IMG/VR virus record: IMGVR_UViG_3300033141_001118
Span: 1-35,953 of that record
From: a virus
Length of the DNA: 35,953 nt
Reading direction: 5' to 3' (one strand)
The notes beneath the pieces are model-generated. The model was not told the origin of the DNA, made no database searches, and saw nothing but the letters and a program-made list of their open reading frames with translations. Of the stretch, positions 28,909-30,973 are shown in pieces (the first letter of the stretch is position 1; every line of letters starts with the position of its first letter). Made by a program: the position numbers and the translations under genes.

Positions 28909-29217
28909 ATGACTAGAAAACAATTTTTAGATTTTGCAAAGAGCTTTTATGATGATGCTCATTCATTAATGGAAAAAAAGAACCACGATTATTCAAGAAT
29001 AGACAATCCATTTTCTAACTTTGAGATACAAGCATTTATAGCTGGAGTTTCAGAAGAAAAAACATTCATGATGGCCCTTGGAACTAAAATAGCTAGACTG
29101 CAAGAGTTAGTTGAAAAACCAGAAAATGCCCGTGTTTCAGAATCTCTCACTGACACTTTAGCCGACCTATGTAATTATAGCGTTTTATTAGCAGGTTACT
29201 TGGAATCTAAAAAGTGA
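28909..29217 (+). CDS. Nmad1/DUF1599-family protein
   Basis: A 102-residue helical protein with the DUF1599 (nucleotide modification-associated domain 1) series: KKNHDYS at about 23-29, NPFSNF, TKIARLQELV at about 60-69 and ESLTDTLADLCNYSVLLAGY at the end. The family is related in fold to all-alpha NTP pyrophosphatases and is found in phages, often beside nucleotide-handling genes. SD GGAAAGGAAAC. The next gene, also MazG-like, overlaps by 4 bases, which points to joint action on nucleotide pools. Confidence 0.8.
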   Translation: MTRKQFLDFAKSFYDDAHSLMEKKNHDYSRIDNPFSNFEIQAFIAGVSEEKTFMMALGTKIARLQELVEKPENARVSESLTDTLADLCNYSVLLAGYLESKK

Positions 29218-29570
29218 GAGACCTTCAGGAAATGGCTGGTGACTTCTTAGAAGGGAGACCGACCATGAAGGATAATAATTCTCTTAAAAGGGTGTTTGAT
29301 CTTTTAGTGTTAGAGGTTGCAGAGGTTGCAGAGGTTTTAGACAATCCTAAGATCGTAGGAGGCGAGATTTCGGACGTGATTATCTTTTGTCTAACACTAG
29401 CTAATCTTCATGAAGTAGACCTTGAAAAAGAGGTTAGAACAAAATTAGCATTTAATAATTGTAGGTATACTGCTGATCTATTTCAGGATGGGGATTACAC
29501 GGAGTCTAGAAAACTAGTTAAGAAAAATGAGGTTCAAACTAAAAGAGACTTTTATGGCCTTGACACATAG
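29214..29570 (+). CDS. MazG-like NTP pyrophosphohydrolase
   Basis: Starts at GTG 29214 (GTGA overlap). The 118-residue product has the metal-binding E-x2-E (E34-V-A-E37) and E-x2-D (E51-I-S-D54) pairs of all-alpha NTP pyrophosphatases, and a downstream K/N/R series (RTKLAFNNCRY). These enzymes hydrolyse NTPs or dNTPs to the monophosphate, clearing non-canonical nucleotides or altering signalling nucleotides. It is the last gene before the terminator, about 85 bases downstream. Confidence 0.8.
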   Translation: MRDLQEMAGDFLEGRPTMKDNNSLKRVFDLLVLEVAEVAEVLDNPKIVGGEISDVIIFCLTLANLHEVDLEKEVRTKLAFNNCRYTADLFQDGDYTESRKLVKKNEVQTKRDFYGLDT

Positions 29571-29654
29571 TAAATAAATTTGTAAATTAAATAAATCTCG
29601 TCTGGTTATTCCTACAAAGATGTACGAGGCGAAACATCACTTTAGTGAACATTG

Positions 29655-29680
29655 AACCCCTAACGGGGGTTTTTTGTTTT
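29655..29680 (+). terminator. Intrinsic terminator
   Basis: AACCCC, loop TAACG, GGGGTT, followed by T-rich TTTTGTTTT. A typical factor-independent terminator, about 85 bases after the MazG-like gene, ending the late transcription unit. The GGGGGTTT arm is also complementary to AAACCCCC at 29681-29688, so an alternative fold could melt it. Confidence 0.8.
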
Positions 29681-29769
29681 AAACCCCCGAGGCAGGTAGA
29701 ACAAAAATAAATTTGAAAACTATAAATATGAAGAAATAGTAAATACCTCGGGGATAATTATATTATACC

Positions 29770-30470
29770 ATTTTCAATACTTGCGGGTTATTGAAAATAC
29801 ATATATAAAAATAGTTGTACTTTAACAACAACCACCAGTCTTTTACTTAGATGAGTTTTTTTAAAACTAAATCTTTCTTAAAAAATCTTTTCCGTCACAC
29901 GAAATTATTACATTTACTAAACACGGTCTATAGTCGACGCGTTTAAAATGATTACTTATCCTAACCAAGCTTTGACGCTATACGTGTACCACTAATCATG
30001 GTTTTCTATTTAATTGACTGGTGATTGTTGTTAAAACTACCTATTGACTCTAACTAGCTATATATTTTATAGTTACAGTTGTCCGCTAAGCGGAATCCCT
30101 ACAGCAATCGGGGTAAAAAATACAGAGTAAAGAGACCGTTTTTTTCTGGCAACTAGGTGGTTGCTGAACTTACTCTGTAGGTTGCCAGAAATGAGCGGTT
30201 TTTTAGTATCTCGAGCTTGTACTAACATGGAGCAGGCTTGAGTTACTAGTAAACTAGAGGTGACCAACTGGCAAGCTAACACACCGTCGCAACGGAAAGC
30301 GACTTTAAATAATCCGATGTTAGAGCAGAGCGAAGGCATGACTTGGGTCGGACTTGATGGTTTATATTTGAACCAAACTCGCTATTACGGTGACACTCAA
30401 TGAGTAAGAGAAACCCGTTTAGAACAATCAAATACCGCTTATTAATGCTTTACCTATTCAGCCAATAGGA
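29770..30470 (+). ncRNA. Large structured non-coding RNA candidate
   Basis: About 700 bases with many paired segments and no coding signal. Perfect or near-perfect pairs: 29770-29779 with 29789-29798 (10 bp); 29821-29840 with 30016-30035 (19 of 20 bp); 29854-29859 with 29863-29868; 29948-29954 with 29993-29999; 30121-30130 with 30170-30179 (10 bp); 30143-30154 with 30180-30191 (12 bp including one G-T), crossing the previous helix; 30222-30228 with 30317-30323; 30286-30290 with 30299-30303; 30358-30362 with 30371-30375; 30453-30458 with 30464-30469. Strand and exact ends are inferred from neighbouring genes. Giant phage RNAs (GOLLD, ROOL) are of similar size, but I cannot assign a family from memory. 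Origin DNA is an alternative reading. Confidence 0.6.
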
Positions 30471-30528
30471 GGCTCTCTCATATCCCTTAGAATCAGACTT
30501 AATATTAATACAAGCTTGGATAACAATT

Positions 30529-30714
30529 ATGACTAGTAAAGAAAAAGAACAATTACTAAGTAATCTTAGAAGTCTTTACAAGAAACACCCATCTTTCAGG
30601 AAAGACATTATTAAAATGGCTGAGAAGATTAAAGGATGGCCTAATAAAAAGCCTGAAAAACCGACTCCAAAAACCGACGATCTTAAGGATAATATTATTA
30701 ATTCTCTCTACTAA
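30529..30714 (+). CDS. Small basic hypothetical protein
   Basis: A 61-residue protein (KEKEQLLSNLRSLYKKHPSF, then KDIIKMAEKIKGWPNKKPEK). Basic and helical at first, Pro/Lys-rich after residue 40, acidic near the end. It is the first gene after the structured RNA region. A GGATAACAATT sequence precedes the ATG, so SD is weak. No family recognised; a small nucleic-acid-binding protein is possible. Confidence 0.6.
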   Translation: MTSKEKEQLLSNLRSLYKKHPSFRKDIIKMAEKIKGWPNKKPEKPTPKTDDLKDNIINSLY

Positions 30715-30722
30715 ACTACTAC

Positions 30723-30762
30723 TTGTAATACTATTCATACTTTGGTACTATACTCTTAGTAC
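30723..30762 (+). promoter_or_regulatory. Early promoter with overlapping dyad operator
   Basis: -35 TTGTAA (30723-30728), 17-base spacer and an extended -10 TGG-TACTAT (30743-30751). A perfect dyad GTACTA-TACTCT-TAGTAC (30745-30762) covers the -10 and the start site, the usual place for a repressor. It drives the cluster of small early genes beginning at 30782, 20 bases downstream. Confidence 0.7.
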
Positions 30763-30781
30763 GAACAAAGAAAGAATAAAT

Positions 30782-30973
30782 ATGAATCTTAACCTTTCAA
30801 CATATACAGATGCCGTTAACTACGGAGCTGATAAGAAAATAAAAAGCGAGCACTTTTGTGATAAGTGTGGATTAGAAGTGGGAAAAGATGGATTTTGGGG
30901 AATGTGTAAAGAACATTATGAAGAAGCTATTGGTAATGATCCGGCACATCCAAGTGAATGGATGGAAGTATGA
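30782..30973 (+). CDS. Small zinc-binding protein
   Basis: A 63-residue protein with CDKC (about residues 26-29) and C-K-E-H (about 42-45) that could coordinate one zinc ion. The ends are hydrophilic. It starts 8 bases after an AAAGAA-type SD. First gene under the dyad-controlled early promoter; the next gene starts at its ATGA stop. Role unknown. Confidence 0.65.
   Translation: MNLNLSTYTDAVNYGADKKIKSEHFCDKCGLEVGKDGFWGMCKEHYEEAIGNDPAHPSEWMEV

Follow-up and report, generated by a model that had tools for sequence, protein, structure and literature searches.

Results

The sole large gene-free gap in a contig of an uncultured phage is predicted to encode a structured RNA that is probably a phage leader controlled by transcription attenuation. 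The best explanation of its anatomy is an attenuator that would either release an RNA of about 125 nt or allow continuation into a second structured module. The best-supported part of the RNA is a terminator/antiterminator switch, and not an ornate scaffold. This switch comprises two mutually exclusive folds, and both of them are supported by compensatory changes. The features are compiled in Table 1.

Table 1. Features of the gene-free gap and of the RNA encoded in it
Feature	Position	Strand	Basis
Intrinsic terminator, end of the late (upstream) transcript	29654-29672	+	sole short-loop terminator-like site in 29500-30850
Sigma70-type promoter, TTGACT-N18-TATAGT	30044-30073	+	in the four homologues, spacer of 18 and 6-8 nt between second hexamer and GUC
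Probable structured RNA, about 400 nt, 3' end approximate	30081-30480	+	G+C content, folding
P1 hairpin, UCCGC-UAA-GCGGA, 5' end of the RNA	30082-30094	+	pairs kept through two-sided changes in homologues
P2 hairpin, AUCCC-UACAGCAAUC-GGGGU	30095-30114	+	near-invariant, with an invariant U-G pair
H1 5' strand, UACAGAGUAA, outer antiterminator helix	30121-30130	+	inverted repeat, pairing in four homologues
H1 3' strand, UUACUCUGUA, inside the terminator loop	30170-30179	+	inverted repeat, pairing in four homologues
Inner hairpin, UGGCAAC...GUUGCUG	30147-30166	+	predicted in nascent RNA, four homologues
Conditional terminator (5' arm 30135-30153, 3' arm 30181-30199, U-run 30199-30204)	30135-30204	+	predicted hairpin and U-run
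P5-like long hairpin directly 3' of the U-run (AGUAUCUCGAGCUUG / CAGGCUUGAGUUACU)	30205-30247	+	predicted fold
3' structured module, no detectable sequence relatives	30250-30480	+	z -2.0 for 30207-30480 (weak)

The gene-free gap and its RNA

The analyzed stretch of 35,953 nt (the window) is a virus record, in which genes for terminase, the major head protein and the tail are present. Terminases of Flavobacterium phage 11b and of some Bacteroides and Polaribacter phages share about 43% identity with that of the window. Despite this kinship, the promoters are of the TTGACA/TATAAT type, and the host was therefore left open; a portal alignment and an RNA pattern search of genome contigs yielded no match. 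The window contains a single gene-free gap of more than 350 nt, at 29571-30528, and it is located between the late and the early genes, as had been predicted. The coding strand of the gap contains no ORF of at least 60 aa, so the non-coding stretch is real. An 88-aa ORF on the minus strand (30073-30339) was rejected as a gene; it had a weak match only and lies over the RNA itself. Among the last genes before the gap, one (28909-29217) encodes a protein that resembles the nucleotide-modification DUF1599 protein, and the very last one (29214-29570) encodes a protein that weakly resembles a MazG-like pyrophosphatase. When the latter was used as bait, no relatives were obtained. Searches of the window with ARAGORN and Rfam revealed neither a tRNA nor a tmRNA.

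The gap can be divided in two: up to 30040 it is AT-rich, and the portion at 30081-30480, which immediately follows the promoter-like site, is richer in G+C. Pairing within 29700-30040 is mainly due to one imperfect 31-nt inverted repeat (29821-29851 and 30005-30035, 84%), the arms of which enclose 153 AT-rich bases just before the promoter. A search of the window and of the retrieved loci revealed no other copy of this repeat, which could be part of an origin or a small mobile element. This pre-promoter part is a feature separate from the RNA.

The G+C content of the structured part is 43.5%, compared to 25-30% in the flanks. The G+C richness that had been ascribed to 29770-30470 applies to this part, but not to the remainder; the count of 57 of 120 nucleotides for 30241-30360 was exact, and 16 of 598 segments of this size in the contig are equally rich. 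Pairing beyond chance was corroborated: there are 18 inverted repeats of at least 10 nt, and the folding z value was -5.9 for 29770-30528 in comparison with dinucleotide shuffles. It was -4.0 for 30081-30480, where 0 of 100 shuffles folded as well, and the strongest stretch was 30101-30250, with -6.7 against shuffles. The original prediction had envisaged one giant RNA of about 700 bases, flanked by a terminator and an early promoter. A terminator is indeed located upstream, but the promoter lies inside the claimed stretch and not at its edge, and the RNA part comprises about 400 nt.

A structured phage RNA that is absent from Rfam had also been anticipated, and this part of the prediction held. 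Rfam covariance searches at gathering thresholds yielded no match to the RNA, and a permissive search of 29550-30550 (E up to 5) gave chance matches only, none of them to GOLLD, ROOL, HEARO or OLE; membership in these classes is thus not supported. In four of four homologues, folding of the 125-nt unit is 9-18 kcal/mol more favourable for the sense strand than for the antisense strand, and two U-G pairs are invariant across them. This argues for a function in RNA and against a DNA cruciform.

Homologues of the first 125 nucleotides

Relatives were collected with terminase and portal searches, and 80 IMG/VR loci were taken from each. Three homologues of the first 125 nt or so of the RNA were found in other uncultured phages (H, L272 and L319), and a covariance model scores the four members, including the window, with 109-134 bits. 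The portal relative H (G062, L284) matches 30092-30204 at 73% (E 7e-11). A topology search for long terminators with a loop able to pair with sequence upstream of the hairpin, which shuffled controls pass at about 9%, selected L272, G004 and G021 beside H. L272 was afterwards found to share P1 and P2 by sequence, and L319 was added by a pattern scan. The four homologues have the promoter geometry TTGAC(A/T)-N18-TA in common, with P1 starting 6-8 nt later; a promoter scan alone did not exceed shuffles (7 sites versus 4.0 expected). G004 lacks domain I sequence similarity, shares the second module and has kept the topology, and its non-coding gap is found at a comparable place, upstream of terminase. 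In the more distant relative G021 (L146 1540-1625), the switch topology is present behind a promoter-like site, without sequence similarity to the window RNA.

On the whole records of the relatives, the covariance model scored high for H, L272 and L319 only; hits at 18-26 bits, some of them antisense of true sites, were judged to be chance or self-complementarity. Whole-motif fits in relaxed RNA pattern scans came from the same phages only. Blastn gave no match for the gap against phages or for the switch against plasmids, and chance-level matches only for the gap against terminase relatives. An exact 15-mer scan returned 61 stretches, which were judged to be chance hits, as gap blastn against the loci found no extended match. 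Long non-coding gaps that fold well are also present in several other relatives, but they could not be aligned. A tRNA-Asn gene is located in the structured gap of one relative (G007, L173 4850-4922). We regard the RNA as a family of a known kind with four sequence members that is absent from Rfam 15, and claim no family membership for it.

Two mutually exclusive folds

The two adjacent 5' hairpins P1 and P2 are the most conserved part of the RNA. When the RNA is cut before the terminator 3' arm, it folds as H1 plus the inner hairpin in four of four homologues, and P1 and P2 are recognisable in each, shifted in L319. In this predicted fold, the upper portion of the terminator 5' arm is tied up in the inner hairpin. 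In its full length, the RNA folds into the long terminator, an 18-21 bp hairpin followed by the U-run in four of four homologues, and this fold is 12.8-16.6 kcal/mol lower (7.9-19.1 kcal/mol in G004 and G021). It is the only long sense-strand terminator in the window. The geometry implies that a complete H1 and a complete terminator exclude each other: one H1 strand precedes the terminator 5' arm, the other one lies in its loop, and few nucleotides would have to span about 18-21 bp.

Covariation among homologues, on which the original prediction had been made to depend, is present for the first 125 nt (P1, P2, H1 and the terminator), and no translated conserved ORF runs across them. With four sequence homologues the power of this analysis is small. 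For P1, P2 and the terminator together, 97.3% of the cells are paired and eight pairs have changed on both sides (97% paired for the terminator); 0 of 500 shuffles reach this pairing, and slid controls collapse to 37-49%. H1, with its register set by hand, is paired in 37 of 37 cells and has kept 36 of 36 double changes, and the inner hairpin is paired in 28 of 28 cells. The strength of H1 exceeds that of shuffles in the window (p 0.0063), H (0.0023), L272 (0.0063), G004 (0.0007) and G021 (0.0007), where L272, G004 and G021 were chosen by topology, so that their p-values are not independent and the window and H provide the cleaner evidence. In L319, H1 requires a bulge, and the ungapped test gave p 0.56.

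The P2 loop (30100-30109) is near-invariant across the homologues (UACRGYAAKC) and mimics the upper end of the terminator 5' arm. It is complementary to the inner 3' strand (30159-30166) and to the terminator 3' arm, with shuffle p values of 0.0006-0.043. This complementarity follows partly from the likeness of the loop to the terminator 5' arm; the likeness itself is the conserved fact. In L272, the pairing is cognate: the loop scores 21 on its own terminator 3' arm and 9-11 on others.

The second module and downstream sequences

Directly after the U-run, L272, L319 and G004 have a helix in common by sequence (UUGUURGYU, or close, paired with AGCUAAUAA). The P5-like hairpin of the window occupies the same position without sequence similarity, and we infer that it is homologous. 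A likeness of AGCUAAUAA to the end of the tmRNA tag was dropped, as no tmRNA was found. The short motif AGCGAC was seen by eye to recur at 30290-30310 of the window and in the second part of L272, L319, G004 and L172. Near the end of the structured part, an AGGAGG Shine-Dalgarno-like site (30464-30472) is present, but no start codon follows it at the customary spacing.

In L272, an 80-aa ORF (2258-2500) directly follows the U-run and separates the switch from the second RNA module, and an ATG directly after the U-run opens short frames also in L319 and G004. No Shine-Dalgarno site is evident for these frames. In H, a strong terminator closes the region, and a new early promoter follows before the first early gene. 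Therefore, the RNA is its own unit there, and control of the early mRNA is not general. In the window, no terminator was seen between the RNA and the 61-aa ORF at 30529.

Discussion

The leader contains a terminator-type hairpin with a U-run in four homologues, together with a mutually exclusive antiterminator that shows compensatory change, in a small sample and with the H1 register set by hand. We propose that the host polymerase would start at the sigma70-type promoter and make P1, P2 and then H1 with the inner hairpin, which would have a head start, as their strands are synthesised earlier. H1 and the inner hairpin would lock the upper terminator 5' arm and thus delay the terminator. Upon emergence of the terminator 3' arm, the far more stable 18-21 bp hairpin could replace H1 and the inner hairpin, and transcription would presumably stop at the U-run after about 125 nt. 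Otherwise, the polymerase would read on into the second module, to about 30480, and possibly into the first early ORF. The P2 loop, acting in cis or, conceivably, in trans from released short RNAs, might pair with one of two targets, the inner 3' strand or the 3' arm of the terminator, and so tip the balance in one or the other direction, as the CI RNA does with seqA and seqC in P4. The free energies favour termination at equilibrium, and in this model the antiterminated state would depend solely on kinetics.

The phage would thereby carry a strong terminator in its leader that acts conditionally, and copies of a single pairing element would compete there. It is possible, albeit doubtful, that the decoy-loop leader is a new RNA-only timing or immunity device of phages, the short product of which acts in trans on its own nascent copies. 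If this is true, RNA dosage decides whether the polymerase passes into the second structured RNA, and the topology outlasts sequence similarity, as in G004. The RNA family offers a direct test of whether RNA alone sets the timing of transcription in uncultured phages, and the switch topology is a search rule that can be used where sequence search fails.

Instead of forming a switch, the leader might act like put of phage HK022: P1 and P2 would bind RNA polymerase directly, terminators would be ignored, and the long hairpin would be the first one overridden. The put RNA is about 70 nt long and has two stem-loops, and putL closely follows the early promoter PL (PMC9378689); P1 and P2 are likewise two adjacent stem-loops just downstream of the promoter, at the 5' end and in the most conserved part, and the leader of some relatives holds two or more terminator-like hairpins. 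However, judged by the description in PMC9378689, the put stems are far larger than P1 and P2. Moreover, put requires no antiterminator helix, whereas here both H1 and the inner hairpin have been conserved, and the P2 loop is explained by its complementarity to the terminator arms, with matching changes in L272. A put-like mode of action is thus unlikely.

That the RNA is a plain short phage sRNA is slightly less likely still. The U-run-ended product of about 125 nt would then be functional, and H1 and the inner hairpin would be folding intermediates or a target-binding form. The strong terminator-like hairpin with a U-run in four of four homologues, the free-standing promoter and the exposure of the P2 loop for pairing would fit this explanation, but it leaves selection on H1 unexplained. 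In addition, a second module follows, and sequence conservation of its first helix in L272, L319 and G004 implies readthrough. Our preferred reading, attenuation, includes both the short product and the readthrough.

A large scaffold-type RNA of the GOLLD or ROOL sort is highly improbable. The phage setting, the strong folding and the lack of protein coding would be compatible with it, but the specific setting suggested by the original prediction was not recovered: there is no tRNA in the window and no Rfam match, the length is about 400 nt, an internal U-run follows the long hairpin, and the 3' part folds weakly better than chance. Least probable is a DNA-level element, a replication origin or a protein-binding cruciform, which would fit the AT-rich stretch with its inverted repeat just upstream, but not the much better folding of the sense strand of 30081-30205 in four phages, the invariant U-G pairs or the fixed register of the promoter.

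Comparison with known systems

GOLLD and ROOL are large ornate RNAs that are often found near tRNA islands and form nanocages (PMC12286853). The window RNA resembles them in being phage-encoded and structured, with unknown function, and differs in its size, the lack of an Rfam match and the absence of a nearby tRNA. The nearest working analogues are HK022 put, the pT181 attenuator, IsrK and P4 CI/seqA-seqC. Like put, where two stem-loops open an early phage transcript (PMC9378689), the RNA begins with two such elements; here, in contrast, the stems are smaller, the loop is complementary to adjacent terminator arms, and the RNA has its own antiterminator helix. In the pT181 and pIP501 attenuators, the 5' portion of the terminator stem is held by an antiterminator, and a loop-loop contact biases the choice (PMC4878617), much as proposed for the window RNA. 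These are plasmid rep leaders; here, a phage is concerned, no antisense transcript was identified, and the putative regulating loop is part of the RNA itself. Gifsy-1 IsrK is a phage RNA for which, as proposed here, one promoter yields a short terminated and a longer readthrough form (PMC4825925), but the target of IsrK is translation of its readthrough mRNA, and the window RNA has no Rfam match.

In contrast to P4, no lysogeny genes were recognised among the window proteins scanned, and the window RNA matches none of the Rfam families by sequence. The complementary element of P4 is the processed CI RNA, whereas here it is a 5' hairpin loop, the action of which in trans is hypothetical. In P4, and as predicted for the window RNA, an untranslated phage leader with premature termination yields a short RNA from one transcript, and complementary copies are located upstream and downstream (PMC4825925); here, the inner strand and the terminator 3' arm are the two copies within the leader to which the P2 loop is complementary.
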